Part shown: piece after piece, positions 10,743 through 25,809 of the stretch
How positions within the stretch are numbered: the first letter of the stretch is position 1
Layout: every line of letters starts with the position of its first letter
DNA from: Mycobacterium sp. EPa45
GTDB taxonomy: Bacteria > Actinomycetota > Actinomycetes > Mycobacteriales > Mycobacteriaceae
Assembly (NCBI RefSeq): GCF_001021385.1
Contig: NZ_CP011773.1
Coordinates: forward strand, 3,658,001-3,722,000
Length of the DNA: 64,000 nucleotides
Direction: 5' to 3'
Notes under the pieces: model-generated
What the model was told of the DNA's origin: nothing
Database searches by the model: none
The model's input: only the letters and a program-made list of their open reading frames with translations
Position numbers and translations under genes: made by a program

Positions 10743-10774
10743 GAGATATGGAGCCTTTCAAACGCACGTATGGG

Positions 10775-12111: not shown

Positions 12112-12488
12112 ACCGGCGCCCCCGCCGGTGCTGCGGATTCAGCACTCGTATGCAACAGCGACGACAACGTCGTGAGTACTTGCGGTACCACCGCGTAGTA
12201 CACCCACGACCCCCGCCGCTCCGATGTCAACAACCCCGCGTCGCGCAGCACCCTCAGGTGATGGGAAACCGTCGGTTGCGACACATCCACGCCGGCCGAG
12301 ATTTCGCACACGCACGCCTCACCGCCGGCGTGGCTGGCGACCGAACTCAACAGGCGCAACCGCACCGGATCCGACAACGCCTTGAATTTTGCCGCCATCT
12401 CAACGGCCGCTCGCATGCTCAACGGTTCGCTCACCATCGGTTCCACCTGACACCGGGCAGCCTCTCGACCGAGGGCTTGATTCGACAT
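12108..12488 (-). CDS. arsR: ArsR-family metalloregulator of the acr3 operon
   Basis: About 126 residues from the ATG at 12488. The winged helix has the pattern ALSDPVRLRLLSSV and the recognition helix is in VSQPTVSHHLRVL. The segment GGEACVCEISAG carries a C-x-C pair at the position of the arsenite-binding cysteines of ArsR. It represses its own operon until As(III) binds. The stop overlaps the acr3 start. The longer open frame to 12572 would cover the promoter palindrome, which favours the shorter start. Confidence 0.9.
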   Translation of the reverse strand: MSNQALGREAARCQVEPMVSEPLSMRAAVEMAAKFKALSDPVRLRLLSSVASHAGGEACVCEISAGVDVSQPTVSHHLRVLRDAGLLTSERRGSWVYYAVVPQVLTTLSSLLHTSAESAAPAGAPV

Positions 12489-12491
12489 TCG

Positions 12492-12511
12492 TCGATATTG
12501 ACAAGTATCGA
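12492..12511. promoter_or_regulatory. ArsR operator palindrome
   Basis: TCGATA (12492-12497) and TATCGA (12506-12511) form a perfect inverted repeat around an 8-base centre containing TTGACA. It lies four bases upstream of the arsR ATG, so a bound ArsR dimer would cover the transcription start. AT-rich inverted repeats of this size are typical ArsR/SmtB operators. Confidence 0.7.
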
Positions 12512-12625
12512 ATCTGGATGCAACAAACGCTGGGTGAACACCTCGGGCCGGCGGTCGCCGGAGCCTCGTCATCGAGATCGGCGGACCATCCGCAAGGACG
12601 GCCCGCCGATCTCGTCAGTGCGCGT

Positions 12626-13120
12626 TCAGCAGCACGATGTAGTGGCGGTGGCCTTGTCCTGTCGGTCTTGAACCCCGACTCCGGCAGCGCCGGCTCCGCA
12701 GCAGGCCCCACCGGTGGACTCAATGTCGAGATGTTGGGGGCTGGAGCCGAAGGTCTCGGAATCGGCCAAGACGGTGTAGACCTCCCACTTCTCGCCGGCC
12801 GGTCCCGTCACCCACACCTTGTCTTGGGTCGCGAAGCAACACGTGGTGCCGATTTCCTCCTCGGTGAACAAGCCTTCACCGGCGAGGCGGGCGATCTCGG
12901 CGTGCACCTTTTCACTGGATTCCACCTCAACGCCTAGGTGGTTGAGGGTGCCGCCGTTGCCCGGGTTCTCCAGCAGAACGAGCTTCAACGGCGGTTCGGC
13001 GATCGCAAAGTTGGCGTAGCCGGGTTTTACCTTGGACGGCTTGGTGTTGAACAGCTTGGAGTAGAACGTGATCGCCTCGTCAAGGTTGTCGACGTTGAGG
13101 GCGAGTTGAGCTCGGGACAT
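12626..13120 (-). CDS. cadI: CadI/ArsI-like vicinal oxygen chelate protein
   Basis: A 164-residue glyoxalase-fold protein very close to M. tuberculosis CadI, the cadmium-induced protein. It has N-terminal SRAQLALNVDNLDEAITFY, His61 in NHLGVEVESS, the vicinal cysteines Cys94-Cys95 in GTTCCFATQDKVW, and Glu113 in GEKWEVYTVL. Those positions correspond to the C-C pair and metal ligands of the ArsI carbon-arsenic lyase family, so both organoarsenical lyase and cadmium-response roles are possible. The C-terminus is Cys-rich (GGACCGA and a final SCC). It is divergent from the ArsR gene at 13224 with shared palindromes between them. Confidence 0.9.
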   Translation of the reverse strand: MSRAQLALNVDNLDEAITFYSKLFNTKPSKVKPGYANFAIAEPPLKLVLLENPGNGGTLNHLGVEVESSEKVHAEIARLAGEGLFTEEEIGTTCCFATQDKVWVTGPAGEKWEVYTVLADSETFGSSPQHLDIESTGGACCGAGAAGVGVQDRQDKATATTSCC

Positions 13121-13143
13121 GGTCCGATCCTCTCTTCCTGTAA

Positions 13144-13199
13144 GACATATATCGAATTAGCGCGCTGAGCCCAGCATGCCGACCTCTTTGATATATGTC
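13144..13199. promoter_or_regulatory. Twin ArsR-type half palindromes in the cadI/arsR divergent promoter
   Basis: GACATATATC (13144-13153) is an exact reverse complement of GATATATGTC (13190-13199). The second copy also sits in a near-palindrome beginning TTGA and ending TCAA. One copy lies near each divergent start, so a metalloregulator could control both cadI and arsR. Confidence 0.65.
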
Positions 13200-13223
13200 A
13201 ATATTTCTGGCATCATCAGTTGC

Positions 13224-13583
13224 ATGCCGAAGGCGTTGCCTGTGATCGATATGTCGGCGCCGGTGTGCTGCGCCCCGGTGGCGGCAGGTCCGATGAGTGA
13301 TGACGACGCTTTGCAGGTCGCGTTACGCCTCAAGGCGCTGGCCGATCCTGCCCGGGTGAAGATTATGTCGTTTCTGTTCAGTTCCTCGGCCGGCGAGGAG
13401 AACAGCGGGGACCTGGCAGCCGCGCTCGGATTGACCGAGTCGACGGTCAGTCACCACCTGACTCAACTGCGCAAAGCCGGGCTGGTCGAATCCGACCGGC
13501 GCGGCATGAACATGTACCACCGACCCCACCGAGACGCGGTCGCTGCGCTCTGCACTGTCCTTGACCCCAACTGCTGCCGCTAG
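13224..13583 (+). CDS. ArsR-family metalloregulator divergent from cadI
   Basis: 119 residues from the ATG at 13224. The winged helix contains [14 protein letters not shown] and [18 protein letters not shown]. Cysteines lie at both ends (APVCCAPVA near residue 14 and a final DPNCCR), which suggests a thiolate metal site different from the C-x-C type of the other ArsR. The layout (this regulator, divergent cadI, second arsR, arsenite pump) matches M. tuberculosis Rv2640c-Rv2643 in order. An open frame starting at 13176 runs through the operator and is less likely. Confidence 0.88.
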
Positions 13584-14100: not shown

Positions 14101-15412
14101 TGTCTGGTTTCACGACATAGTTGGCAGCTGTCTCGGGACATAGTTGACACCTCGGCTTTTCGGGAGGTCAGCCCATGTCCAAGGCCCAGCTTGTCATCAC
14201 CGCGGTAGTCCTGGAAGGGCGCAGCAAAAGCGAAGTCGCCCGCGACTACGAGGTCTCCCGCTACTGGGTCCACCAACTCGCCAAACGCTACGAAGCCGAA
14301 GGGGCGGCCGCCTTCGAACCCCGGTCACGCCGCCCCCATACCAACCCCCGCGCCATCGACGCCGACCTTGAAGAACGCATCATCAGGCTGCGCAAAACGC
14401 TGCACAAAGAGGGCTACGACGCCGGAGCCACCACCATCGCCGAATACCTACGCCGCGACCCCGAAGTCCTCGAGTCACCCGCGATTTCCACCATCTGGCG
14501 GGTGCTGTCACGACGGGGCTTCATCACCCCACAACCCCAAAAACGCCCCCGCTCAAGCTGGAAACGCTTCGAAGCCGACCTGCCCAACCAATGCTGGCAA
14601 GCTGACGTCACCCACTGGCGCCTCGCCGATCACACCACCGTCGAAATCCTCAACCTCATCGACGACCACTCCCGTCTGGCCATCACTTCGCTCGCCCGCC
14701 GCACCATCACCGGCATCCACGTCGTCGAGGCCTTCACCGAAGCCTTCACCACCTGGGGTGTTCCCGCCGCTGTACTCACCGACAACGGTGCGGTATTCAC
14801 CGCCACACCCCGACGCGGCGGCCGCACCGCCCTGCAAATCCTGCTCGGCGAACTGGGCATCAACTACATCAACTCCCGGCCCTACCACCCACAAACCTGC
14901 GGCAAGATCGAACGCTTGCACCAAACACTCAAAAAGCGGCTCAACGCGCTACCCGCAACCAGCACGATCGACGAATTACAAAGCCAGCTCAACGAATTCG
15001 CCGAACACTACAACAACACCAGGCCCCACCGAGCCCTGCAGCGGCGCACCCCGACCGAGGCCTTCACCGCCCGCCCCAAAGCCTTCCCCACCGGTTACCA
15101 AATCCCGCCGCACTTCCGCGTCCGCCACGACACCATCGACGCCGCCGGCGTCATCACCCTCCGCTACAACAGCCGCCTACACCACATCGGACTGTCCAAA
15201 CACCTCCGCGGCACCCACGTCATCGTGCTCATCAACGACCGCGACATCCGCGTCCTGGCCCGCGACAGCGGAAAACTCATCCGCAAACTCACCCTCGACC
15301 CCCACCGCGACTACCAACCACGCGGCGTAAAACCCGGAAACAGCCCCACCAACAAACCCCAGATGTAAATGATGTCCCGAGACACCTGTCAACGGTGTCT
15401 CGAGACATCACA
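14101..15412 (+). mobile_element. IS481-family insertion sequence
   Basis: A 1312-base element. Its two ends, read inward over 49 bases, agree at about 36 positions; both start TGT and share GTCTCGGGACAT. It holds one transposase gene and is flanked by identical 15-bp direct repeats. The ends were placed by matching the terminal inverted repeats and the direct repeats together. It has inserted into the left attachment site of the tRNA-Pro element. Confidence 0.88.
14175..15368 (+). CDS. IS481-family DDE transposase
   Basis: 397 residues. An N-terminal helix-turn-helix pair (KSEVARDYEVSRYWVHQLA, about residues 17-35) is followed by an integrase catalytic core. The DDE residues lie in CWQADVTHWRL, AVLTDNGAVFT and CGKIERLHQTLKKRL. 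The C-terminal region is of the usual IS481 type. The reading frame is intact from ATG to TAA, so the element may still be active. The start lies 74 bases inside the left inverted repeat. Confidence 0.93.
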   Translation: MSKAQLVITAVVLEGRSKSEVARDYEVSRYWVHQLAKRYEAEGAAAFEPRSRRPHTNPRAIDADLEERIIRLRKTLHKEGYDAGATTIAEYLRRDPEVLESPAISTIWRVLSRRGFITPQPQKRPRSSWKRFEADLPNQCWQADVTHWRLADHTTVEILNLIDDHSRLAITSLARRTITGIHVVEAFTEAFTTWGVPAAVLTDNGAVFTATPRRGGRTALQILLGELGINYINSRPYHPQTCGKIERLHQTLKKRLNALPATSTIDELQSQLNEFAEHYNNTRPHRALQRRTPTEAFTARPKAFPTGYQIPPHFRVRHDTIDAAGVITLRYNSRLHHIGLSKHLRGTHVIVLINDRDIRVLARDSGKLIRKLTLDPHRDYQPRGVKPGNSPTNKPQM

Positions 15413-15427
15413 AAGTCGGGCTGACAG
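15413..15427 (+). repeat. Right 15-bp direct repeat flanking the IS element
   Basis: An identical copy of 14086-14100. From 15415 it runs on into the 43-base att core, so the IS target was the attachment site itself. Before insertion the lpd remnant joined this att core directly. Confidence 0.85.
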
Positions 15428-15457
15428 GATTTGAACCTGCGACCACTTGACCCCCAG
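15415..15457. repeat. Left attachment site of the tRNA-Pro element
   Basis: 43 bases identical to 24875-24917, the 3' part of tRNA-Pro from the anticodon loop to the acceptor end. The match stops right after CCCCCAG, where the tRNA continues with TCAAG but this copy diverges. This is the standard direct repeat left by site-specific integration into a tRNA gene. Confidence 0.92.
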
Positions 15458-15563
15458 ATGGAAAAGTGGTGTTCCCGGGCGTGTCGCAGTGGCCCATTTT
15501 TGCAGGTGGGCATCACTTGTGGCACACCACGGCACGGGCCGAAATGCCCAGGAAATAGACCGC

Positions 15564-15585
15564 GTTGCTGTACCGGTTGCTGTAC
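15564..15585. repeat. Tandem GTTGCTGTAC repeat near the left att site
   Basis: Two copies of GTTGCTGTAC separated by two bases. The same tandem, differing by one base in the spacer, occurs at 24781-24802 beside the right att site in the same orientation. Repeats placed this way are typical arm-type integrase binding sites. Confidence 0.65.
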
Positions 15586-15624
15586 AGCTCCGACCACTTG
15601 ACACAGCGAGTTACCTTGCTGGAC

Positions 15625-15918
15625 ATGACCATCCGAAACACGACAGTCGTCCGCCACACCTCCCCCAACCCTGCCGACGTCGGCCCGAAACTCGGCTGGT
15701 CCGGCGCGATAGTCGAGGTCATCGCGGGCCAAGTCACCGGGTCAATCATCCGCTCCATCGACACCGACCGCGCCGTGGTCGACGAGGCCCAAATTCACAT
15801 CGACACCGAGCAGCACGACGGATACATGGCCGACGTCGTCACAGATGATCCGGCCGTCCTTCGCGCTCTGTCGGCGGTCGCCGCAACCCTCGCCGACGAA
15901 CTCGGCGGTGCCGAATGA
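15625..15918 (+). CDS. Unknown 97-residue protein, first gene of the plus-strand cargo block
   Basis: Starts at ATG 15625 (MTIRNTTVV), chosen over an upstream start at 15565 inside the att-arm repeats. The protein is acidic in its second half and lacks membrane segments or cysteine motifs. No family is recognised. Its stop overlaps the next start as ATGA, so it is coupled to the following gene. The opposite orientation to the phage core genes is typical of lysogeny-expressed accessory genes (morons). Confidence 0.55.
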   Translation: MTIRNTTVVRHTSPNPADVGPKLGWSGAIVEVIAGQVTGSIIRSIDTDRAVVDEAQIHIDTEQHDGYMADVVTDDPAVLRALSAVAATLADELGGAE

Positions 15919-16232
15919 GGACCAACAACTGGCCCGCGATGTGCGGCCAGGAGCGGACTAGGTTCCGCGATGAATATGACGGCACTGGCCGCCTCGTTGT
16001 CGCCGACCGCGCCGACGGCCACCCGGGCGCAGTGTTGGTGCTGCCCGACGACAGCAAGCGCGGCGAGGTCTACGTGCTCACCAGCGGTGAGGTCGACGGT
16101 CTGATCGCGGCGCTGCGAAAGAACGCGCACGAAACAGCGATCTCCAGTTGCGGATGGTGCGACAGCGTCGGCATGGTGGACGGTGAGGACGGCCCGGCGT
16201 TCTGCGACCACCCACCACCCATCGACGCCTGA
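15915..16232 (+). CDS. Unknown 105-residue protein with C-terminal cysteine cluster
   Basis: Overlaps the preceding gene by four bases (ATGA). The body is a predicted alpha/beta fold with RLVVADRADGHPGAVLVL and a VYVLTSGEVDGLIAAL segment. The C-terminus SSCGWCDSVGM...PAFCDHPPP could bind a zinc ion through C-x-x-C and C-x-H. No family could be named. Position and coupling place it in the element's plus-strand cargo operon. Confidence 0.6.
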   Translation: MRTNNWPAMCGQERTRFRDEYDGTGRLVVADRADGHPGAVLVLPDDSKRGEVYVLTSGEVDGLIAALRKNAHETAISSCGWCDSVGMVDGEDGPAFCDHPPPIDA

Positions 16233-16308
16233 CCACCGCCATGTGGACAACGAGGATCGGCGCGTCGGCCGCAGGGTGACCGCGGATTCCTCGTAGTCTC
16301 AACGCAGG

Positions 16309-17037
16309 ATGTCCGCCCCGAACTACGTAATGGTCGGCAGCCCCGGCGACGTTGCCCCGACCCTGGCTGGGCCGGGCACCCTCCGCTGGGCCAGCGGCCA
16401 ACCCGTTGGTCCTCGGTCGATGACGTGGCAGGTCATCGGCGCTCGGAACAGCGACGACATTTACGTCGGCGCGCGCGGGCTGATGCACGACATGAAATTG
16501 AGCCTGCATATGTCACGCGTATGGCGGTGGGCATTCACGCAACAAGCGCTGCAGAAGTACTTCCCGCCCGGCGCAGACTCGAAAGTCATTCGCTACGAAG
16601 AATCCGCACCGTTCGCCGACGGATGGCGCCGGGGAGCGGTAATCCGCACGCCATCAACCACGTTCGGCCCGGCCTATTCCGAGAAACGCCCCAGCGACAA
16701 GCAGCCGATCCGGTTCTTCACCGCGCCGGACCCTCCGCAGCATTGGCAATACCACGTCCTGATCGCCGAACCTGCAGCACCGCCCATCCAGATTCCAGTG
16801 GTCTTCGTCGGGTCGATGGTGCTCACATCCGGCAAGACCGTTTGCGTCGTCGCTGACCACTGGGAGATGACTACGGAACGCGAGCAGTCGATCGCCCAGG
16901 CAATCGGAGCGGCTGCCGAGGAGCCGAGGGCTCGCGCGGGTATTGCGTCGGGCGACATTGGCGGAGTTCCGCTCCTAATCGACCTGGCTAGATTGCGCCC
17001 CGAAGACGGCGAACATGCTGACGCGGGTGGCGGTTAG
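16309..17037 (+). CDS. Unknown 242-residue protein, third cargo gene
   Basis: Soluble and tryptophan-rich in the middle (SRVWRWAFTQQAL). It contains a strand-like stretch IPVVFVGSMVLTSGKTVCVVADHW and an acidic, Gly-rich tail. There is no signal peptide or membrane helix, and no family is recognised. It follows the two coupled cargo genes after 76 bases and is on the same strand, facing the phage core genes. It could be an exclusion or defence gene carried by the element, but nothing in the sequence proves this. Confidence 0.6.
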   Translation: MSAPNYVMVGSPGDVAPTLAGPGTLRWASGQPVGPRSMTWQVIGARNSDDIYVGARGLMHDMKLSLHMSRVWRWAFTQQALQKYFPPGADSKVIRYEESAPFADGWRRGAVIRTPSTTFGPAYSEKRPSDKQPIRFFTAPDPPQHWQYHVLIAEPAAPPIQIPVVFVGSMVLTSGKTVCVVADHWEMTTEREQSIAQAIGAAAEEPRARAGIASGDIGGVPLLIDLARLRPEDGEHADAGGG

Positions 17038-17140
17038 CCCCGCCCGGGGACTTCCTTGTGTGCTGCGGCTGCGTCGCGGAACCAGCAGACCCACATCCGC
17101 GACGCCATTACCGGCCGTCGGCCGCACCACGTGGACTACG

Positions 17141-17311
17141 TTATCGGCCTCCACCCGCGCTACGGAACTGCAGATCTGCAAACGTCTCGTCACGCTTGCG
17201 CTTCTCGCCCTCAGCTTCGAGTGCCGCGACCCGCGCGCTCAACGCCTCAATCTTCTCGTTCAGCGCGACAAACGCTTCCTGGACCGACGCCGCAAACTCG
17301 TCATTCGACAT
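17141..17311 (-). CDS. Small coiled-coil protein
   Basis: 56 residues from the ATG at 17311, which has AAAGGA nine bases upstream. The sequence SVQEAFVALNEKIEALSARVAALEAEGEKRKR has heptad hydrophobic spacing and is almost certainly a coiled coil. It is converging with the last plus-strand cargo gene. Small coiled-coil proteins of this sort are common downstream of phage structural genes. Function unknown; a start at 17320 is also possible. Confidence 0.55.
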   Translation of the reverse strand: MSNDEFAASVQEAFVALNEKIEALSARVAALEAEGEKRKRDETFADLQFRSAGGGR

Positions 17312-17437
17312 ATCCGTCATTCCTTTGCTCGACAGAACTGATGGAGATCGGGTGCCAATCAAGCGTAGGCGGCGGGTACGACATCGGTGCTTACAGGGCC
17401 GCCGGAAAGCCGCAGACCTGTCGACGGCACCAGACCG

Positions 17438-17728
17438 TCACACGTAGGCAGTCATCCGGCGCCCGCCCCCTCCACGTGCGGGCCGCGTTCCGCGCCGGTG
17501 CTGGCCGGACGACCGCTGTTCTGAGCCGCCCACCAGGCCGTGCCAGTGCTCGATTGGATACACCGGCGACCCGTCGACGTAGATCATTCCGCCACGATGT
17601 CGTACACCTCGGCTCGTGCCACGCTTGCGGTACAAGCGAGCACGTTTGGCGTGCTCGTCGGTGCAAGTCCGGCAGCGGCACCCGCGTGGGTAGCCGTCAC
17701 CGGCACGGCGGTGCTTGATTTCGCTCAC
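17438..17728 (-). CDS. Small phage protein with Cys-x-Cys-x2-Cys motif
   Basis: Starts at GTG 17728 with AAAGG eight bases before it. The N-terminal half has GYPRGCRCRTCTDEHAKRARLY, a pattern seen in many small actinophage proteins that probably bind zinc. The middle, GGMIYVDGSPVYPIEHWHGLV, looks like an ordered domain, and the tail is basic. The longer frame to 18040 overlaps the glycosyltransferase gene and is not credible. The exact role is unknown. Confidence 0.6.
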   Translation of the reverse strand: MSEIKHRRAGDGYPRGCRCRTCTDEHAKRARLYRKRGTSRGVRHRGGMIYVDGSPVYPIEHWHGLVGGSEQRSSGQHRRGTRPARGGGGRRMTAYV

Positions 17729-17877
17729 TTGCAATACCTTTCGCGGGGCGTGGTACCGGAGAGTCCCACACTCGTCCGGCCTGCTAGCGCCAATGACTAC
17801 CGGCGGCGCGCACCCGGGGGGCGGGGGTAAGGCCCCCGGGGTAGGGCTACCGCCATCCGGCGGGTGGCTCGGGGAGC

Positions 17878-18594
17878 TCACAGCGCCACCGCCGTGCCTG
17901 TCCACGTGCGGCGTACTCCGACGCGCCAGGCGCGGCGTCGGCGTGGCGCTCGCCGTCGACCTGCGATCACGGGTTCGCCGTCTAGGTGATCGACAAGCGA
18001 CGGCCATGTGTATCCGACCTTGTGGTCGCGTCGCACACACCAGGCGCTGATCGCTTCGTCGATAGGACGACGCGCGTCGATGCAGCCCAACATGTCGGCG
18101 ACCAGGTGCCCCCGGATAGCCACCCCTACCGCGTGGTGTAGCCGGTCGGCGAGGAACCAGGACACGTCATCGGTTGCTCGGACGATCGCTGAGGCGAACC
18201 TGGACTGCAGGTGCGCTGGACTGCCTGTCCCAAGATAGAGGCCCACCACAGGGGTAGGGGCCACCGCTAGCGCGGCTTCTAGCTCTTCACGAAAGTTGTT
18301 GACCGGCAGGGCATCATCCTCCAGCACTACGATCCACGCATTGCGCTGCGCCGCGCCCAGACACCACCCCCACGTGTGCAGGTGGTTACGGGTACCGCCC
18401 CGGCCCCCCGGGTCTACCTCCACGTGATCTGCCCGTACCCGGGTGGCGAGCCGGTCAGCCATCCCCCGCCTGGCGGGATGTGCCACGACGGCGACCACCG
18501 GGGATGCCGCCCCGATGGTCGCCGCGTGGCCCGCGCCTGGGGCTGGAGGAGCGGCCAGCCCCGTCGCGAGTCCGTTGCGCATTGTGTTGCGCAT
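17878..18594 (-). CDS. Glycosyltransferase-like phage protein
   Basis: About 238 residues from ATG 18594, eight bases after the capsid stop. The pattern HPARRGMADRLATRV near the N-terminus and WIVVLEDDALPVNNF in the middle (E-D-D in place of the sugar-nucleotide metal motif) resembles family-25-type glycosyltransferases found in some mycobacteriophages. The C-terminus is very basic (RRRAPRRRR). Its position directly after the capsid gene suggests it glycosylates the capsid or another virion protein, or alters the cell surface. The start is uncertain because no strong ribosome site is seen. Confidence 0.65.
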   Translation of the reverse strand: MRNTMRNGLATGLAAPPAPGAGHAATIGAASPVVAVVAHPARRGMADRLATRVRADHVEVDPGGRGGTRNHLHTWGWCLGAAQRNAWIVVLEDDALPVNNFREELEAALAVAPTPVVGLYLGTGSPAHLQSRFASAIVRATDDVSWFLADRLHHAVGVAIRGHLVADMLGCIDARRPIDEAISAWCVRRDHKVGYTWPSLVDHLDGEPVIAGRRRAPRRRRAWRVGVRRTWTGTAVAL

Positions 18595-18601
18595 GTTGGT
18601 G

Positions 18602-19447
18602 TTACGACCCGTCGACGCCCAGGAGGACGACCCGGCTGGCGTCGTGGATCGTGGCACCGAACCGCCAGGTTGCGCGGATTGCGACGGCCTGGCGGTTGAA
18701 GTAGTAGTGCTCGCTGGAGGCGATTTCCAGCCCGCCGTAGACGCTCAAGATCGCCTCCTTGTCGAGGACGATGATGCTGTCCTCGGGCACATCCCGATCG
18801 ACGGTCACACCGACCCCTAGCAGTCGCCGGTCAGCCGGTTCCGTTCCGGCACCGATCAGGCTGACATTGCTGTCGACCGCGGACTTGAGCTTGGACAGGG
18901 TTGCCCAGGCGTTCGGGTGGGCAAGAATGTTGGTCGCCTCACCACCGGCGTTCTCGATCGCGGCGATCGCGTCGATCAGGGCGTCCAGGTCTTCGCCGAT
19001 GACACCGCCGTCGGTGACGCCCTGGTGGATGATTCCGGCCGGGGGGCGCACTGCGGGCGGGGTTGGGGCGGCCTGTGCCAGATAGGCGGCGTTCGCCTTG
19101 CGGGTCATGGCCCGTCGGGTGGCGTTCGACAACAGCTCGGCGGCCTGGCCGGTTTGATACTGCTCGATCGACACCGGGAATAGCACCGCGATCTTGCTGG
19201 TGCCCACCAAGACCTCGTCGTCGTCGGGGTCCGACTCTTCGATCGCGTCACCTTCAGCGACGAAGTCGGGGGCGTCGGTCAGGTCCACTTTCGGCACCCG
19301 CACATAGGGCTCGTCGCCCTTGACGTTTCCGGCCTTCGTGCTGGTGTTCAGGATCAGCGCGTTGGGGATGATCTCGGCTGGCGCGGCGCCTTCCACGTCA
19401 ATGTGAAACGCCTTGGCGCTGCCGGTTGTATTGAACGGATTGGTCAC
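18602..19447 (-). CDS. HK97-fold major capsid protein
   Basis: 281 residues from GTG 19447, which has AGAAGGA eight bases upstream; this beats the ATG at 19483. The sequence has the typical HK97 capsid order: an early beta region (PYVRVPKVDLTDAPDFVAEGDAI as spaced strands), the SKIAVLFPVSIEQYQ segment, a spine helix region with TRRAMTRKANAAYL, and the C-terminal TWRFGATIHDASRVVLL. It would build the shell. Its presence without terminase or portal genes means the element alone could not package DNA, unless a helper phage provides them. Confidence 0.85.
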   Translation of the reverse strand: MTNPFNTTGSAKAFHIDVEGAAPAEIIPNALILNTSTKAGNVKGDEPYVRVPKVDLTDAPDFVAEGDAIEESDPDDDEVLVGTSKIAVLFPVSIEQYQTGQAAELLSNATRRAMTRKANAAYLAQAAPTPPAVRPPAGIIHQGVTDGGVIGEDLDALIDAIAAIENAGGEATNILAHPNAWATLSKLKSAVDSNVSLIGAGTEPADRRLLGVGVTVDRDVPEDSIIVLDKEAILSVYGGLEIASSEHYYFNRQAVAIRATWRFGATIHDASRVVLLGVDGS

Positions 19448-19531
19448 TGGATGTGATCCTTCTGCGGCATCGGCCGCGGACATGTTGCAGAGCAACACAA
19501 TTCGGATTGAGTTCCGCGGCGGCCACGGGCC

Positions 19532-19609
19532 GGTCAGCGTCCCCGCGCGGCGGGGGTGGTTCCTGGCGTCGCACCGCCGGGCCACGGGCCACACGCGGAG
19601 ACGCTGACC
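19532..19609. repeat. Large inverted repeat between scaffold and capsid genes
   Basis: GGTCAGCGTCCCCGC (19532-19546) pairs with GCGGAGACGCTGACC (19595-19609) with one mismatch, around a GC-rich 48-base loop. It lies in the 184-base gap upstream of the capsid start. It could be an mRNA stability or attenuation hairpin controlling capsid output, or a packaging recognition site. Confidence 0.6.
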
Positions 19610-19631
19610 ACCATTCTACTGTGTCAGCCCG

Positions 19632-20405
19632 TCACCGCTGACGAAACGCTGCCGTGAACTGTTCAAGCCCACCGGGGATTTGCGGTGCGCCGCCGCGACC
19701 GACGGCGCCGACGGGATCAGGGCGGCGCGGTCGGCCGGGGATGTCGACGCGGAATTGCGCGATCGTCGATTCGACTGCGGCGGTGAGCTTGTCGTGGTCG
19801 ATGAGGCCGCTGTCGTCGAGGAGCGTGTCGGTCGTGTGACCGGCGGCGGTCAGCAACGCGGGGTCGAGTCCTGCCCGGCCAAGCTCGCGGTCGATGACGG
19901 CCTGCCGGGTGCGGTCGATCATGTCCCGTGATTCAGCGATCAGCCATTCGGCGGTTATGCGGGCTTCGGCCAGATCGGCTTCGGCTGCGCGCAGACGCGT
20001 GCGGTAGCGGGCGGCCTCGTTGGTGGTGCGCTGATCAGCGTCGTCGTCCTGGTGGCCGTCGCCGTTGTCGGCCGAGTCAGCTTCGGCGTCAGCACCCTCG
20101 CCGGCGGTAGACAGGTCCACTGGCGCTTCGGGTTTCCCGTCCGCAACGGGCGGCTGCGGCGGATCACCCGCGGCCGCATCCGTTGAGCCGTCAGCGGCGG
20201 CGCTGGGTGGCTCAGTGGCGGCCGCGGCGCGCGTCCGCATGTGATCCTCTGCAGAGGTGCGCCAGTCGGTGTCGGTCTGGCCAGGTTGGCGGTCGGGCAG
20301 ATCGTCAGGGCAGTCGCCATACAAGTCCTGCATGCGGGCTGCCCAGGCCTCGCTGGATTCAGCCGGGTTGCCTTCAGCTGCATCGGTTTCGATTGGGGTC
20401 GTCAT
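19632..20405 (-). CDS. Scaffold-like phage protein
   Basis: 257 residues from ATG 20405, overlapping the upstream stop (ATGA). The first half is disordered and rich in Asp, Ala, Glu and Pro. The middle (about residues 130-185) is a predicted coiled coil (YRTRLRAAEADLAEARI), and the tail is Gly/Pro/Arg-rich. An acidic coiled-coil protein encoded just before an HK97 capsid gene is the usual position and make-up of a scaffolding protein. No protease domain is visible. Assignment is by composition and place, not by homology. Confidence 0.65.
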   Translation of the reverse strand: MTTPIETDAAEGNPAESSEAWAARMQDLYGDCPDDLPDRQPGQTDTDWRTSAEDHMRTRAAAATEPPSAAADGSTDAAAGDPPQPPVADGKPEAPVDLSTAGEGADAEADSADNGDGHQDDDADQRTTNEAARYRTRLRAAEADLAEARITAEWLIAESRDMIDRTRQAVIDRELGRAGLDPALLTAAGHTTDTLLDDSGLIDHDKLTAAVESTIAQFRVDIPGRPRRPDPVGAVGRGGAPQIPGGLEQFTAAFRQR

Positions 20406-20914
20406 CGGTTGTCCTCCTTGAGCGTGTTGTTGGCGATGTCGTCGATGATGTGATCGGCCGGACCCGCCCACGCGGCGAGAGTTCGGACCAGGAATACGGT
20501 TTGCAGCGCGACCCGGCGGTCGTCGCCGTCGCCGAAGATGCGTGCCATTTCGAGGCGGTTGGCGAAACCGTCGACCGGGGCGATCGCCAGCACCGCGGAA
20601 CCGATGTCGAAGTCGTCGTCGCGTTGCTGTTCGTGGCGTTCCTCGTCGCCCCAGAAGGTTCCGGCCAGCGCTTGCCGGAATGACAGGAAAATCTCTGGGC
20701 CACCGTGGTAGTCGTCAGCGATGTGTCGGGCCAGAGTGGCGGCGGTCGCGGTCAGGACTTGCCACGGTAGACCGGACCGGTCGAGGGCGGCCCCGACGCC
20801 GACGCCGCGGATGGTGTCGTTCGTCCACGGCCGGAAGTGCCCGGCCGCATGGGCGGCTTCTACGACAGCCCGTACCGCTGCGCTGGGAGGGCTAGAGGGT
20901 TGGTGCTGGGTCAT
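20402..20914 (-). CDS. Unknown 170-residue element protein
   Basis: Starts at ATG 20914, four bases inside the WhiB gene's stop (ATGA), and ends overlapping the scaffold-like gene. The protein appears alpha-helical and soluble, with acidic patches (DEERHEQQRDDDFD) and the C-terminal ADHIIDDIANNTLKEDNR. No family is recognised. Sitting in a tightly coupled WhiB-unknown-scaffold string, it may be a packaging or assembly factor, but the sequence gives no direct evidence. Confidence 0.7.
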   Translation of the reverse strand: MTQHQPSSPPSAAVRAVVEAAHAAGHFRPWTNDTIRGVGVGAALDRSGLPWQVLTATAATLARHIADDYHGGPEIFLSFRQALAGTFWGDEERHEQQRDDDFDIGSAVLAIAPVDGFANRLEMARIFGDGDDRRVALQTVFLVRTLAAWAGPADHIIDDIANNTLKEDNR

Positions 20915-21441
20915 GCGATTGCTCCTTCGGGTTCGGCTTGGAGGGTCCAGGTTGTGTTCCTGCTCGTCCGCGTGATCGTGACGCCCAGGCGTTGGGCTGC
21001 CTGGTGGACGGTGGCGCGGTGGTGTCCGGCGGCCGCCGCGGCGGCGTTGATCGCCGCGGATGTGTCGCTGCCACCCACGGCGGCCATGTGGGCGGCAAGC
21101 CAGTTCGCGGCCCGGTCGGCTTTGGTGGCCCGCGGTGGCTTCGGGGTGGCCGGTGGGCGCAGCTTGGGTGGTGTCGGTTCGGCGATGATCCGTCCGGCCA
21201 CGACACCGGCGGGCCGTTGGCGGCGTGGGAGTGACGCCAACCAAAGGGCGCAGGGGGTGAGCGCGGGGCAGCCGTTGCAGATGTCGACGGCGGTCTGTCG
21301 GCGTGCCACCTCGTCGGGGTGGTCGCCGGAGATGCCGTCGCCCGGCGGATCGAAGAGATGGTGTCGTCCACGGCAGGCGGCGCCGGGGAGATTCGGGATG
21401 GCGCGAGCCAAGTCGGTGAAGAAGTCCTCGATGAATGTCAT
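20911..21441 (-). CDS. WhiB-family iron-sulfur protein of the element
   Basis: 176 residues. Four cysteines, Cys23, Cys55, Cys58 and Cys64, follow the WhiB pattern C...C-x2-C-x5-C that holds a 4Fe-4S cluster, followed by PAGVVAGR in place of the usual G-V/I-W-G-G turn. WhiB proteins bind sigma factor region 4 and change promoter choice; phage-encoded ones can repress host WhiB2 or block superinfection. The C-terminal extension (about residues 105-176) is Ala-rich, with a helical, helix-turn-helix-like segment. It is coupled to the next gene. Confidence 0.85.
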   Translation of the reverse strand: MTFIEDFFTDLARAIPNLPGAACRGRHHLFDPPGDGISGDHPDEVARRQTAVDICNGCPALTPCALWLASLPRRQRPAGVVAGRIIAEPTPPKLRPPATPKPPRATKADRAANWLAAHMAAVGGSDTSAAINAAAAAAGHHRATVHQAAQRLGVTITRTSRNTTWTLQAEPEGAIA

Positions 21442-21474
21442 TGGCGTTGACCGGCGTTCGGGGTGACCGTGGTG

Positions 21475-21553
21475 ACCACCCCCCGGGTCTTAAGGACCCC
21501 GGGGTGGTTGGTAATTTCCACCGAGGGGTGGTCATAGTGGTAATTGGTGGTCA
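21475..21553. repeat. Hairpin and iteron-like repeats between the RepA-type ATPase and WhiB genes
   Basis: A near-perfect hairpin (ACCACC...GGGTC, loop CTTAAG, GACCC...GGTGGT) spans 21475-21508. Beside it GGTGGTCA occurs at 21527-21534 and 21546-21553, and TGGTAATT occurs twice between 21505 and 21548. The second GGTGGTCA covers the stop of the upstream ATPase gene. Such repeats next to a replication ATPase could be its origin binding sites; a transcription pause is the alternative. Confidence 0.55.
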
Positions 21554-23083
21554 ACACGATTTGCCGCCTTCTCGGTAGAACGGGCGCTGTTCGCTGCCCA
21601 GGTTGACCAGCTGGCCGGATTTCTCCAGGTCATTGATGCCGCGATACGCCGTGACGCTGGGAACGCCTATCTCCACAGCTGTGTTGCGTAGTTGTGCTCG
21701 CGTTGCTCCGGTTGCCCCGAAGTGGTCACGGAAGATGGTCAGAATTTTCTCCGCGCGATCATCGGTTACCAGGGGGTGGTCAAAGTCGCTGTGCGCCTTC
21801 AGCACCAGGCTGCCGGTGCCGGGAATGGGATCGGGCCGCAGCTGATGGCGATCGTCCTCTGGCCCGTCTTTTCGCTTTTCGCGGGCGAGGTCGATGACGC
21901 CGCCGTCGCGGGTGACGGCGTAGACGGTGTCGGCCCCGGCCTCGAACACGGACGAGCCGCGGAAGGTCTTGCCGTCTTTGCCGGTGTGGTGGACACCGAG
22001 GACGACGCCGCGACCGTCGAGGGTGTGCTCACGTAGCCGGGTGAGGGTGTCGACGACTTGGCCGCAGTCCTTCGCCGAGTTCTCGTCGGCGCCGACCATG
22101 CACCGGGCCAATGTGTCGATGATGACGAACCCGTAGCCGGTATCGGCGATCAGCGCCGTCAGGTCGCGGACGTCTGCGGGGTTGGTGAGATTCACAGCGG
22201 CGGGAAGGATGTCGAGGTCGCCGTCACCGATCTTGGTCTGCCAGCCTGTCTCCCACGCGTTCATGCGGGCCTTGAGCCCATAGGCGCCTTCAGCGGCAGC
22301 GTAGAGAACCCGGCGCTTCTCGGTGGCCCGCCCCTGCCACGGGTGGCCGGTGGCGACGCTGGCGGCCCAGTCGAGCGCGATGAACGACTTGAATGTCGCC
22401 CACCGGCCGTACAGCAGGGCGACGGTGCCTTGGTCGAGAACGTTGTCGATCAGCGGCTCGGGGTCGGGCAGCGTTCGCAACGCCGACCGGTTGAGCAGCT
22501 TGGCGGCGAACCGGTTGAGGGTGTCGCCGCACGGGTCGAACGTGGTGTTACCGCCACCGTATTCGTTGAGCAGGGTGATGTCGGCGGGGCCGTGCCGGTC
22601 GGCGCCATTCTGGGCGGATTCGAGGGTGCGGCGGATTCCGTTTGGGCCGCAGTTGTGGTCGGTGTCGAGTCCGCAGGCGACGGCGGCGTCGGCCATAGCC
22701 TCGGTGACGATCTCGCGGTCTACTCCGAAGCGGTCGGCGATTCGGTAGCCGCGCAGCGCGTTCGCGTTGAGCGTGTGATTGCGGCCGCTGTCTGGCGCCA
22801 TGCAGGCTAGTTCGGCGGCCAGACTCGCCGCCGCGGCGCGCACATACCGTTCGGCGTCCCTACCGGCCTCCCGGTCCCCCGGTGGTCGCGCGCGTGGCGC
22901 TGGGTTGGTTTGATACCGCTCGGCGGCGAGGCCTTGGGCGATGATCCACGCTTTCACGTGCGGCAGTTTCGGCTTGGTGTCTCCGTCCGGTGGTAGCCTT
23001 GTGGGGCAATGGTTTTCGCCTGATGAGGCGCTCGGGACGGCATGCCCGGGCGTTTCGTCTTGTTGGGGCAAGGTTTTCCGCAC
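21551..23083 (-). CDS. RepA-type AAA ATPase/helicase with primase-like N-terminal region
   Basis: 510 residues. An N-terminal helical region (about 75-165, with ALRGYRIADRFGVDREIV and RRTLESAQNGADR) resembles primase-associated domains of phage replication proteins. The RecA-like ATPase (about 205-430) has a P-loop LLYGRWATFKS at 226-233, Walker B GFVIIDTLARCM and a helicase-type HHTGKDGKTFRGSS stretch. A C-terminal winged helix (about 450-505) follows. It is likely to start replication of the excised element. The first codon is GTG; a later start cannot be excluded. A gene of this kind supports element-borne replication rather than passive cargo. Confidence 0.82.
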   Translation of the reverse strand: MRKTLPQQDETPGHAVPSASSGENHCPTRLPPDGDTKPKLPHVKAWIIAQGLAAERYQTNPAPRARPPGDREAGRDAERYVRAAAASLAAELACMAPDSGRNHTLNANALRGYRIADRFGVDREIVTEAMADAAVACGLDTDHNCGPNGIRRTLESAQNGADRHGPADITLLNEYGGGNTTFDPCGDTLNRFAAKLLNRSALRTLPDPEPLIDNVLDQGTVALLYGRWATFKSFIALDWAASVATGHPWQGRATEKRRVLYAAAEGAYGLKARMNAWETGWQTKIGDGDLDILPAAVNLTNPADVRDLTALIADTGYGFVIIDTLARCMVGADENSAKDCGQVVDTLTRLREHTLDGRGVVLGVHHTGKDGKTFRGSSVFEAGADTVYAVTRDGGVIDLAREKRKDGPEDDRHQLRPDPIPGTGSLVLKAHSDFDHPLVTDDRAEKILTIFRDHFGATGATRAQLRNTAVEIGVPSVTAYRGINDLEKSGQLVNLGSEQRPFYREGGKSC

Positions 23084-23129
23084 TTCCTTGGACCGGGCCT
23101 GCGGTTAGGTTTGATTTAAGTGTCGGCTT

Positions 23130-23333
23130 TTAGACGGCGGCGGCGGCTTCTCCAAGCCGCTCGACGTATTCGCGCAGTGAATCGGCGGTGATGAACCCTC
23201 GCGTCCCGATGTTGACCTTGGTGATCTCGCCGCTGCGGATTAGGCGGTAGAGGGTGCTGCGTCCGATGCCGCCCAGCTGATAGATGGCGGCGTCGATCGG
23301 GATCAGCATCTGCGTCGGGCTGTCGGTTGGCAT
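23130..23333 (-). CDS. Excisionase / AlpA-type helix-turn-helix protein
   Basis: 67 residues from ATG 23333, preceded by GGAGG at a good distance. The sequence IDAAIYQLGGIGRSTLYRLIRSGEI is a MerR-like winged helix as found in AlpA and phage Xis proteins. The next part (KVNIGTRGFITADSLREYVERL) completes the fold. It probably directs the integrase toward excision and may also act as a repressor. It lies between integrase and replication genes, the usual xis place. No separate immunity repressor gene was found. Confidence 0.82.
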   Translation of the reverse strand: MPTDSPTQMLIPIDAAIYQLGGIGRSTLYRLIRSGEITKVNIGTRGFITADSLREYVERLGEAAAAV

Positions 23334-23450
23334 AGGTGCCTCCTTGGGTGTTCTCGTGCGCGGGGTGTGGGCTGGCACGCTTGACACAACGGTGGCACAG
23401 GAAATGGACACGGTCGGCTGAGTCAGGACGAAAGTGTTTGCAACAGAACG

Positions 23451-23524
23451 GTAGACAGGTCTACAGCAGGTTTAGTGGAGTGCTCTCCGCTACGTGCGTC
23501 GATGGCGCGAAATGTTTAGCAAAC
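23451..23524. promoter_or_regulatory. Palindromes in the integrase/excisionase gap
   Basis: GTAGACAGGTCTAC (23451-23464) is a 6-2-6 perfect palindrome, and GTTTAGCAAAC (23514-23524) is a 4-3-4 palindrome, both in the 215-base gap between the integrase end and the excisionase start. They are candidate binding sites for the excisionase-like protein or a repressor. This gap also should hold the promoter of the replication operon. Confidence 0.5.
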
Positions 23525-23548
23525 GGCGAAACGTGCGCGTGGCCGACG

Positions 23549-24751
23549 TCACAGGCCGAGTGCGCTGCTCAACCCCGCGACCGCTGCACGCGCGGTGTCA
23601 TCGGTGCTGTGTGAGTAGATGTCGCCAGTGATGGCGATTGACGAGTGGCCGAGCAGGTCAGCGACGGCCTTGATGTGCACGCCGGACTCGAGCCAGGCGG
23701 TAGCGGCGCTGTGCCGAAGGGTATGCACAACCGCACCTTTCACACCTGCCTTCTCGGACGCGATCTCGATGGTGCGGAGGATGTTCCGCGGCTCTACCGG
23801 TCGCCCCATCTCCGTGCAGAACACGAGGTTGTTGTCCTCCCACAGATTCGCGGCCCGCATCCGCTCCTCCAGCTGCGTTTTGCGATGAGCCTTGAGCATC
23901 GCCACGACACCCGCTGACAGTGGAATGGTGCGGCGGGAGCGCTCAGTTTTTGGTGCGCTGACGATAATTCGCTTGCCGACTCGGCCCACCGTGGCCGCAA
24001 CCTTGAGCACCCCTGCATCGAGGTCGATGCGATCCCAGGTGAGCCCGAGGGCTTCACCGCGCCGCAGCCCGGTCGCCGCGATCAGACGCAAGACGGGTGC
24101 GTAGCGCAGGCCGTCCGCGGCTTGAAGTAGCGCGGCAACGTCGGCCGCCGGTATGTGGTGTGCCTCCCGGCGCTCGACCCCGGGGCGCTTCACCTGGGCG
24201 GCCGGATTGCGCGCCAGCAGCCCATCGCGCACGGCGCCGTCGAGCGCCTGCCGTAGAACCGCGTAGACGGATCGAATGGTGCTGTCGCTGTATCGGCGCA
24301 CCGGCGCCGGTTCGGCGCCATCCGTCGCGGTCTTGCCGGGCTTCGTGGCGGCCCGCAACGACAGGATCAGACCTTCGATGTCGGACGGCTTGAGCTTGTC
24401 CAGCCGGATGGCACCGAACGGGGCGGGCTCCAGGTGCTTGCGGCTCAGATCTGAGTACATTGCGCGGGTCGACACCGCCCGGTCGGACACGGCCAGCGTG
24501 GTGGCCCGCCAGTGCTGGAGCCAGTCCTCGACCGTTCGGGTGGAGTCGGTGGGCGGCTGCCCGGCGTCGATCCGTTCACGTAGCTTCTTGAGTTTCTCGC
24601 GCACGTCGGCCTGGGTCCGACCGTAGACGACCTTCCGCTTGGTCTGGCCAGTGTCGGGGTCGGTGTAGGTGACGGCACCTTCCCAGCGCAGGAGCTTGCC
24701 GTCACGCATCCGTTTGTAGGTCGAGCCCTCGCCGTTCGCCTTCTTCCCCAT
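23549..24751 (-). CDS. Tyrosine-recombinase integrase
   Basis: 400 residues. An N-terminal arm-binding domain (GSTYKRMRDGKLLRWEG) is followed by a core-binding SAM-like domain and the catalytic domain. The active-site set is visible: Arg in ATGLRRGEALGL, the His-Thr-Leu-Arg box in HTLRHSAATAW, His in LLGHSSIAIT and the nucleophile Tyr in DIYSHSTDD. It would recombine the 43-base att sequence in tRNA-Pro. It is the gene nearest the intact tRNA, as usual for tRNA-targeting integrases. Confidence 0.95.
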   Translation of the reverse strand: MGKKANGEGSTYKRMRDGKLLRWEGAVTYTDPDTGQTKRKVVYGRTQADVREKLKKLRERIDAGQPPTDSTRTVEDWLQHWRATTLAVSDRAVSTRAMYSDLSRKHLEPAPFGAIRLDKLKPSDIEGLILSLRAATKPGKTATDGAEPAPVRRYSDSTIRSVYAVLRQALDGAVRDGLLARNPAAQVKRPGVERREAHHIPAADVAALLQAADGLRYAPVLRLIAATGLRRGEALGLTWDRIDLDAGVLKVAATVGRVGKRIIVSAPKTERSRRTIPLSAGVVAMLKAHRKTQLEERMRAANLWEDNNLVFCTEMGRPVEPRNILRTIEIASEKAGVKGAVVHTLRHSAATAWLESGVHIKAVADLLGHSSIAITGDIYSHSTDDTARAAVAGLSSALGL

Positions 24752-24780
24752 GCGGCAGAAGGTAGCTCTGTTTTTGGACA

Positions 24781-24802
24781 GTTGCTGTACCCGTTGCTGT
24801 AC
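24781..24802. repeat. Tandem GTTGCTGTAC repeat near the right att site
   Basis: The second location of the same tandem repeat found at 15564-15585, in the same orientation. It lies between the integrase start and the tRNA. With the left copy it probably forms integrase arm-binding sites on both sides of the att core. Confidence 0.65.
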
Positions 24803-24820
24803 GTACCCCCAGCGGGTACG

Positions 24821-24860
24821 AAAAAGGGCGGTCCCGACCTTCTCGGAAACCGCCCTTTAC
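24821..24860 (-). terminator. Rho-independent terminator after tRNA-Pro
   Basis: AAAGGGCGGT (24823-24832) pairs with ACCGCCCTTT (24849-24858). On the minus strand the hairpin is followed by a run of T. It lies just downstream of the tRNA 3' end, inside the mobile element, so the element seems to supply a terminator for its host tRNA and insulate the integrase gene from tRNA transcription. Confidence 0.8.
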
Positions 24861-24874
24861 CTGCAAATTCTTCT

Positions 24875-24917
24875 GTCGGGCTGACAGGATTTGAACCTGC
24901 GACCACTTGACCCCCAG
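24875..24917. repeat. Right attachment site of the tRNA-Pro element
   Basis: Exact copy of 15415-15457, here embedded in the functional tRNA-Pro. It runs from two bases past the acceptor end to the anticodon loop. Confidence 0.92.
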
Positions 24918-24949
24918 TCAAGTGCGCTACCAAACTGCGCCACAGCCCG
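24877..24949 (-). tRNA. tRNA-Pro (anticodon GGG)
   Basis: A 73-base cloverleaf on the minus strand: acceptor CGGGCTG/CAGCCCG, anticodon arm CTTGA-CTGGGGG-TCAAG with anticodon GGG, and T-arm GCAGG-TTCAAAT-CCTGT. All stems pair. CCA is not encoded. The 3' half doubles as the attB/attR core of the integrated element, which leaves the tRNA intact. Confidence 0.95.
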
Positions 24950-25026
24950 TTGCCGTCCGACCACCGCCGGCAGCAGGTCGAAAGCCTACCGCAGGCCCGG
25001 CCGCGGACCCGAATCGGTTACAGCAC

Positions 25027-25809
25027 TCACACCGTGAGTAGCCGATACAAGCCGATCAGGCCCACCACCACGATGACTGCCCGGAGCACGTTCGGCGACA
25101 GCCGCCGGCCGTAGTGCGCCCCCAGCCAGCCGCCGACCAGCGAGCCGACAGCGATCAGGCCGGCCGCTTCCCAGCTCACCCGGTCGAACGCCACCACGGT
25201 GTAGCCCACCGCCGCGACGACGTTCACCAGCAGGGACAGCAGATTCTTGGCCGCGTTCATCCGCTGCATGTCTTCGGGCAGGAGCGCGCCCATCACCCCG
25301 ATCAGCAGAATGCCCTGCGCCGCGGTGAAGTACCCGCCGTAGATGCCCACCGCGAACGTCCCGGCCACCAGCGCCACCATTCGCTTCGACGACACATGTT
25401 CAGCCGACCGCCCGGCAGCCTCCGCGCGCTGGCGCGCATACGCCTGGATCCGCGGCCCGATCACCACCAATACGAGGGCCGCGATCAGCAGCACCGGCAC
25501 GATCTGGGTGAACACCTTTTCCGGCAGGTGCAGCAGCAGGAACGCCCCGATCGCCGCGCCGAACACCGATGCCGGGATCTGCCAGCGCAGCCGGTCCCAT
25601 TGCCCCCCGAGCTCCTTGCGATACCCCCACGTCCCCGAAACCCCGCCGGCGACCAGACCGATCGCATTCGACATCGTTGCCGTCACGGGCGGAAAGCCGA
25701 GCGTCACCAGCGTCGGGAACGTGATCAACGTGCCCGACCCGACCAGGGAATTGATGGCGCCGGCCCCCATCCCGGCCAGGATGATGACGATCATGTGGGC
25801 AACGGACAT
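25027..25809 (-). CDS. TauE/SafE-family permease
   Basis: A 260-residue membrane protein with about eight hydrophobic segments and the internal repeat typical of the family. The first repeat has GAGAINSLVGSGTLITFPTL and NAIGLVAGGVSG; the second has TAAQGILLIGVMGAL and AAKNLLSLLVN. These proteins move sulfite, sulfonates or other organic anions across the inner membrane. The gene is divergent from the nitroreductase and lies next to the tRNA-Pro insertion site on the chromosomal side. The substrate cannot be told. An in-frame TTG is directly before the chosen ATG. Confidence 0.85.
   Translation of the reverse strand: MSVAHMIVIILAGMGAGAINSLVGSGTLITFPTLVTLGFPPVTATMSNAIGLVAGGVSGTWGYRKELGGQWDRLRWQIPASVFGAAIGAFLLLHLPEKVFTQIVPVLLIAALVLVVIGPRIQAYARQRAEAAGRSAEHVSSKRMVALVAGTFAVGIYGGYFTAAQGILLIGVMGALLPEDMQRMNAAKNLLSLLVNVVAAVGYTVVAFDRVSWEAAGLIAVGSLVGGWLGAHYGRRLSPNVLRAVIVVVGLIGLYRLLTV

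Follow-up and report, generated by a model that had tools for sequence, protein, structure and literature searches.

A 9.46-kb tRNA-Pro element of Mycobacterium sp. EPa45 with its own scaffold and capsid genes is probably a helper-dependent phage satellite

A 9.46-kb element in a tRNA-Pro gene of Mycobacterium sp. EPa45 is probably an integrative phage satellite that makes its own scaffold and small shell and would draw its packaging motor, portal and tail from a helper phage. It lies in a stretch of 64,000 nucleotides of contig NZ_CP011773.1 (the window; feature coordinates below count from its first letter) within a single-contig host genome of 6.18 Mb (G000; the window is G000:C1:3658001-3722000). 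We read it as a satellite because it is bounded by attachment (att) sites, carries an intact integrase and helicase together with a scaffold and a capsid gene, and has no recognised portal, terminase, protease or tail gene. An earlier reading of the sequence, here called the original prediction, had proposed a satellite relying on a helper phage, and this is supported by what follows, with helper dependence suggested by the gene content.

Results

An att-bounded unit in a target site shared with temperate phages

A repeat search of the window found exact 43-bp direct repeats at a spacing of 9460 bp, giving the cores of attL (15415..15457) and attR (24875..24917). The right copy is part of a tRNA-Pro(ggg) gene (24875..24949, minus strand; ARAGORN, and Rfam RF00005), the integration target, and this tRNA was the sole match above the gathering score in an Rfam scan of 15300-25100. 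The phages prophiGD51-2, Daegal and Wishmaker carry the 43-bp core unchanged, and Giles and many similar phages carry it at 97.7% identity; since it is common to temperate phages, the element uses their same target. By base composition the element is not distinguishable from its flanks. From the tRNA end, the minus strand encodes in order an integrase, a helix-turn-helix (HTH) excisionase-like protein, a RepA-like helicase, a WhiB-like protein, an open reading frame (ORF) product called p170, a scaffold-like protein, an HK97-fold capsid protein, a glycosyltransferase and small ORFs, after which three accessory ORFs on the plus strand fill the attL end. PHROGs scans covered 11 of these 14 ORFs and Pfam scans 10; the 39-, 97- and 105-aa ORFs are in neither set. 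The coordinates and gene list of the original prediction, with its exact att repeats, are correct.

A scaffold and capsid pair without a match in 50,697 phage records

The capsid gene (18602..19447, minus strand) encodes a 281-aa HK97-fold major capsid protein, as predicted, with matches to PF05065 (E 4.8e-17) and phrog_10 (E 4.4e-20). Its predicted structure (predicted local distance difference test, pLDDT, 80) has the HK97 fold and 380 structural matches at E 0.001, and the 50 of these listed are capsids of phages, gene transfer agents (GTAs) and satellites, including the Staphylococcus aureus pathogenicity island (SaPI) SaPI1 and EcCI2, a capsid-forming phage-inducible chromosomal island (cf-PICI). 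A tblastn search of 50,697 phage records with the capsid gave no match at E 1e-5, which means that it was not recently derived from any phage among those records. The scaffold-like protein encoded upstream (257 aa; 19632..20405, minus strand) likewise matched nothing in the 50,697 records. It has no family match of its own, and its assignment is supported through its relatives: 17 members of a scaffold alignment, A2, match five families, of which three are named head scaffolding protein (by 3, 1 and 1 members). The A2 model finds a match just upstream of the capsid in 45 of the 49 loci of the window's capsid lineage surveyed below; 17 of those loci went into the alignment, and 28 of the remaining 32 are independent matches.

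With a separate scaffold upstream, a 281-aa capsid needs no scaffold domain of its own, and this may explain why there is no protease. In Amelie, Shauna1, Giles and Eponine, four ordinary phages, a protease is annotated even though the scaffold is separate, which speaks against this account as the full explanation. Neither the capsid nor the scaffold model matched any ORF in the fetched stretches of these four genomes.

Upstream of the scaffold gene, the junctions between the WhiB-like gene and p170, and between p170 and the scaffold gene, both overlap as ATGA. The WhiB-like protein (20911..21441, minus strand) is 176 aa long with an extra C-terminal part. The original prediction of a WhiB gene holds as far as a WhiB-like ORF with four cysteines read by eye, and the family label itself is weak: PF02467 (E 0.006) falls below the cut-off, as does the top Pfam row, DUF6455 (E 1.5e-4), and phrog_12112 is matched at E 0.0016. 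No function is assigned to p170 (20402..20914, minus strand); it has no relative in 69 other loci, and among 396 genomes there are two weak, stop-broken matches outside the host genome. A single-sequence structure model of p170 (pLDDT 37) was discarded.

Missing packaging and tail genes

The element ORFs scanned gave no match to a terminase, portal, protease or tail family, in agreement with the original prediction, and no homologue of TerL (the large terminase subunit) or portal turned up in those genes to which no function is assigned. Head-tail connectors and small terminases were absent from the 11 of 14 ORFs scanned, and models for the head-tail adaptor and for proteins like TerS (the small terminase subunit) gave nothing in the window element. 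The host genome as a whole has no match to the portal profiles PF04860, phrog_12 and phrog_104 or to the TerL profile phrog_9; one marginal match to phrog_2 (E 5.3e-4) lies at 199742 of the genome. There is thus no obvious resident helper. When the TerL and portal profiles phrog_2, 9, 12 and 104 were run over 17 whole genomes holding 20 of the elements, no match fell inside any element.

Relatives recur as separately bounded elements

At E 0.001 the capsid finds matches in 38 of 148 genomes, with 20 places, the window included, at E 2.3e-43 or better and the others weaker. A capsid alignment of 20 sequences (A1) matched 123 of 396 genomes of the genus at E 1e-20 or better and 34 of 298 genomes of the order at E 1e-10. 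In the genus, the A1 matches form mostly two groups, at least 58 places at 294 bits or more and those at 130 bits or less, and the two are imperfectly separated, with fragments and one full-length match in G454 (212 bits) falling between them. Among named genomes 38 loci were found, including ones in Knoellia, Rhodococcus, Xylanimicrobium, Leucobacter, Brevibacterium, Bifidobacterium and Flaviflexus and in a Propionibacterium and a Micrococcaceae metagenome-assembled genome; IMG/VR added one locus, a duplicate of L036. On one contig, two window-lineage capsid genes lie about 8 kb apart (G422:C31:58299-59129 and 66420-67241), possibly in tandem elements.

For comparison, 80 loci were pooled (the window, L033-L052, L091-L129 and L130-L149), and 10 duplicates were dropped to leave 70. 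One of these, L052, is a second, broken copy of the window capsid lineage in the host chromosome (G000:C1:2218348-2218996); its exclusion left 49 window-lineage loci and 20 sister-lineage loci, the latter (L130-L149) hand-picked from A1 matches of about 1e-37 to 1e-30 with fragments skipped. Genes were counted as inside an element when they lay between tRNA repeats, where these were found, or, failing that, no more than 6 kb from the capsid on its strand. The models for TerL and for portal, each derived from four sequences, were confirmed as phrog_9 and phrog_104. By this count the 49 window-lineage loci hold 45 scaffolds, no TerL and no portal, 7 head-tail adaptors, 9 TerS-like genes, one minor tail gene (L046) and one tape-measure-like gene (L047). 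The 20 sister-lineage loci, which had been fetched as presumed ordinary-prophage controls, hold 19 scaffolds, 9 TerS-like genes, one tape measure (L137) and TerL with portal in three (L138, L140 and L143); the other 17 are without recognised TerL and portal. Several of the loci end at a contig boundary, and for these the absences are less secure. When all of the fetched sequence is considered, L036 is the one locus of the 49 with a match to TerL or portal, at 7-9 kb from the capsid. There, a block of TerL, portal, scaffold and capsid genes (L036 14018-19791) lies on the opposite strand beyond the att repeat, with a tRNA cluster between it and the capsid-only element.

Direct repeats of at least 18 bp that span the capsid, overlap a tRNA and are spaced 4-20 kb apart were found in 35 of the 70 loci (26 window-lineage, 9 sister-lineage). 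The elements so bounded measure 8094-10060 bp in the window lineage (mean 8987) and 9432-10691 bp in the sister lineage, and L137 comes to 10,227 bp although 4.1 kb of it is a tape-measure gene. So narrow a range fits a fixed head capacity. Recurrence of independently att-bounded relatives with the same gene economy also rules out that the window element is a piece of a longer prophage in related strains, the second possibility against which the original prediction was to be checked. The original prediction had further described the layout as one it did not recognise, and in this respect it needs correction. The scaffold and capsid pair recurs throughout, WhiB-like stretches occur in 20 of the 69 other loci, and L147 is the one other locus with a glycosyltransferase immediately behind its capsid; it is p170 that is not conserved.

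Single helper-type parts and cargo in relatives

Some relatives carry one gene of a kind expected from a helper. The tape measure of L137 (1379 aa; L137:5129-9268) shares 69.5% identity, across residues 1-1374, with the tape measures of Amelie and others, a tape-measure-like gene (L047:6375-9266) stands beside the scaffold and capsid of L047, and the minor tail protein of L046 (L046:7389-9167) is 60.6% identical to that of Aminay; the ORFs of these three loci were scanned in part. Support from PHROGs for the TerS-like proteins is mixed, with E 5.9e-19 for L043, a weak 3e-4 for L148, only a weak family without a named function for L110, and no match for those of L037, L042, L097 and L126, and the TerS-like counts above, which come from our own seed model, are therefore tentative. 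The protein at L034:7900-8415 matches phrog_226 (minor tail protein) and phrog_1897 (E 2.1e-5), and the Shauna1 record annotates gp1 as both minor tail protein and terminase small subunit; the L034 protein may be a small terminase. A head-tail adaptor gene stands just downstream of the capsid in L036, L039, L041 and L098, elements in tRNA-Val or tRNA-Leu; the L039 protein matches phrog_1290, and the others were found with a model seeded from L039, L036 and L034.

The three TerL-bearing sister-lineage loci are compact and combine TerL and portal genes with scaffold and capsid (the tRNA repeats of L140 bound 10.7 kb), and they resemble cf-PICIs, here in mycobacteria. In each, the gene in the scaffold position also gives scaffolding matches (E 8e-5 to 1.5e-3). 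Just downstream of the capsid of L045 are two cargo genes (L045:9847-11513), one ShosA-like (E 2.3e-59) and one ShosT-like (E 2.4e-5).

A folded spacer between scaffold and capsid

The scaffold and capsid genes of the window are separated by 184 nt (19448..19631, minus strand) with folding z scores of -4.3 and -3.6 in two estimates. Such spacers measure 107-213 nt in the 61 loci that have both genes with a gap of this kind, and their z scores (60 shuffles each) have a median of -3.6, lying below -2 in 44 of the 61 (three values print as -2.0, one of them counted below the cut) and below -4 in 21. Controls of the same length reach z below -2 in 2 of 61 scaffold-coding and 4 of 61 capsid-coding pieces. 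The fold is not universal, since 17 of the 61 spacers stand at -2 or above, including those of all three TerL-bearing loci (-0.6, -1.1 and -0.4). Amelie, Shauna1, Giles and Eponine have shorter gaps of 87, 18, 33 and 58 nt. The three gaps of sufficient length for the test give z of -0.2 to -1.4, and the 150-nt stretches up to the capsid start give 0.7 to -1.9. An alignment of 39 of the 61 spacers has little primary conservation. The spacer may set the capsid-to-scaffold ratio; a role as packaging signal is the alternative.

Integration and replication genes

The tyrosine integrase (23549..24751, minus strand) is an open frame of 400 aa with matches to PF00589 (E 2.7e-28) and phrog_1 (E 7.6e-68), and is thus intact, as had been predicted. 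Three loci with sister-lineage capsids that are likewise inserted in tRNA-Pro(ggg), L135, L137 and L149, have integrases 61-67% identical to it, while the window capsid belongs to the other lineage. Related integrases with capsids of different lineages indicate that modules have apparently been exchanged between elements, and the element modules appear, from these comparisons, to be mosaic. In one survey subset, 4 of 20 loci carry large recombinases that we read by eye as serine type.

The next gene (23130..23333, minus strand) encodes the HTH protein taken in the original prediction for Xis-like, an assignment that PF12728 (E 5.8e-7) and phrog_66 (E 3.2e-5) favour. It is followed by the 510-aa RepA-like replicative helicase (21551..23083, minus strand), where the prediction of a RepA/primase-type ATPase agrees with matches to AAA_25 (E 3.3e-36) and the phrog_6012 helicase family (E 1.4e-48). 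Over a 0.5-kb stretch, the DNA of this gene is about 65% identical to the helicase genes of Minerva, Dove and other phages. Against phage DNA, the element matched 55 records, of which all 25 listed match the helicase stretch and the remaining 30 include those with at least 95% identity. An uncertain 39-aa ORF (21438..21557, minus strand) comes from the gene caller only.

Post-capsid genes, accessory genes and neighbourhood

Directly after the capsid, where the original prediction placed it, lies a glycosyltransferase gene (17878..18594, minus strand; phrog_854, E 1.4e-66). Its product has matches in 706 phage records, those listed being about 48-49% identical and covering 71% of its length, and its relatives in phages such as Shauna1 lie near the right genome end. 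Enzymes of this kind can glycosylate capsids. Two small minus-strand ORFs follow, of which the first, possibly Cys-rich and 96 aa long (17438..17728), is uncertain, being part of an open frame not picked by the gene caller and having no phrog match; the second (17141..17311), from the gene caller, encodes a short coiled-coil-like protein of 56 aa with weak coiled-coil matches.

On the plus strand, the accessory gene p242 (16309..17037) has no assigned function; it finds matches in 22 of 297 genomes of the genus, the host included, and none in Pfam or PHROGs at E 1, in PADLOC at E 0.01 or in the 69 other loci. The 105-aa ORF beside it (15915..16232, plus strand; gene caller) has no PADLOC match and no relative in the 69 loci, and the 97-aa ORF (15625..15918, plus strand; gene caller; 117 aa from an upstream TTG) has no PADLOC match and one relative, in L127. 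Directly left of attL is a transposase gene (14175-15368), presumably of the IS481 type, and it sits between the element and genes at 10314-13583 that by eye resemble an arsenic operon.

Discussion

Classical PICIs and SaPIs remodel the capsid of their helper and have no major capsid gene, and the window element differs from them in having one. It shares with phiRv1 and phiRv2 of M. tuberculosis the state of an integrated mycobacterial element; phiRv1, however, has a large serine integrase where the window element has a tyrosine integrase. The phiRv1 capsid is also longer and accompanied by a prohead protease. A complete prophage would hold TerL, portal and tail genes between its att sites, and the window element has none of these among the ORFs scanned.

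Closest to what we describe are the candidate Mycobacterium PICIs (mSystems 2023, PMC10654092), phage-like regions defined by a capsid gene and the machinery for integration, among them tRNA-integrated examples with tyrosine integrases and helicases, some with terminase or scaffold genes; in the portions of that paper drawn on here, the PICI-like elements of slow growers correspond to phiRv1/phiRv2, and induction and transduction of the candidates remain undetermined. With its integrase and capsid gene the window element falls under this definition and is a member of a known, still hypothetical kind. The same portions of PMC10654092 mention no spread outside mycobacteria, no size range and no tape measure, all three of which our relatives show, nor did we see in them the folded scaffold-capsid spacer or relatives with a single tape-measure or minor tail gene; the literature covered is limited.

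According to PMC10690885, as excerpted here, cf-PICIs encode everything needed for head and packaging, namely protease, portal, connectors and both terminase subunits. The window element is like them in having its own major capsid gene and unlike them in that large terminase, portal, prohead protease, connectors and small terminase were not found, leaving only scaffold and capsid. The Streptomyces satellites MulchRoom and MiniFlayer, in the same part of PMC10690885, are actinobacterial too, with a scaffold and their own small capsids (about 43 nm reported); unlike the window element they have both terminase subunits and a portal and no primase homologue, and they parasitise virulent phages. 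Putative E. coli satellites (PMC10448857, in the part used here) have a capsid without terminase, protease or head-tail adaptors, as in our case, and they also encode tape-measure and baseplate proteins, as a few of our relatives do one at a time. They differ in being enterobacterial, and that part describes them as having capsid and decoration proteins and makes no mention of a scaffold. Because capsid and tape measure without terminase were already proposed for those satellites, the tape-measure variant seen here has a parallel.

If the element is a satellite, helper infection would lead to its excision and to replication by its own helicase. Scaffold and capsid would be made from the coupled WhiB-p170-scaffold-capsid string and assembled into a small shell sized for about 9-10 kb, into or onto which the portal, terminase, connectors and tail of the helper would be built and from which the larger helper genome would be kept out. 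The glycosyltransferase may decorate the particle with sugars, and the genes on the plus strand near attL would be accessory cargo.

Several points weigh against such a satellite. No particle, induction or transfer was observed. Neither a helper nor a packaging site was identified, and the window element itself has no TerS, adaptor or tail gene tying it to a helper. The absence of TerL and portal rests on profile searches, which diverged versions could escape, and p170 and p242 have no known fold. Finally, the fetched loci were capsid-centred and at most about 20 kb long, some cut by contig ends, and longer elements are not fully visible in them.

How far do other explanations account for the same genes? 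An island whose capsid and scaffold mainly poison the assembly of incoming phage and so protect the cell, while the island itself is seldom transferred, could do without packaging genes, and the ShosA- and ShosT-like defence cargo of L045 would suit it; we nevertheless regard this as unlikely, since integrase, helicase, tRNA sites and the narrow size range fit packaging and transfer, the relatives are spread over several actinobacterial genera, and the three plus-strand ORFs of the window are negative in PADLOC. That most virion genes are absent could also mean a decayed prophage which kept its capsid gene by chance, and the host genome does hold one truly broken capsid copy (G000:C1:2218348-2218996). 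The intact frames and exact att sites of the window element, and the like absence of TerL and portal from 48 other window-lineage loci, 44 of them with scaffold, make chance decay very unlikely.

A complete if unusual mini-phage, its portal and terminase diverged past recognition, might hide these functions in p170, p242 and the other ORFs without a family, but neither p170 nor p242 can be a shared motor when both lack relatives in the 69 loci, p242 is patchy in the genus, and TerL and portal are recognisable upstream of the scaffold in 3 of 20 sister-lineage loci; we rank this below chance decay. Least probable of all is an encapsulin-like or GTA compartment, which a lone HK97-fold shell gene and the GTA capsids among its structural matches might bring to mind. 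The 50 matches listed of the 380 are phage, GTA and satellite capsids with none described as an encapsulin, and the shell is accompanied by integrase, helicase and scaffold. A helper-dependent satellite with its own scaffold and shell is the explanation that we favour.

A broader proposal we put forward tentatively, with somewhat more doubt than confidence. Throughout the Actinomycetota there may be satellites of about 8-11 kb that swap only the shell (scaffold and capsid, with a ratio-setting folded spacer between them) and add single helper parts, whether TerS-like protein, adaptor, minor tail protein or tape measure, so that their particles would be built piecewise on different helpers. If the satellite reading is right, a sizeable fraction of the capsid genes dispersed through mycobacterial chromosomes would be those of satellites rather than of dead prophages, and phage biology would gain very reduced capsid-making satellites. 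Candidate helper groups could be named for some, such as Amelie-type phages for L137 by way of its tape measure, and the acceptance of a helper portal by a foreign shell would become directly testable.

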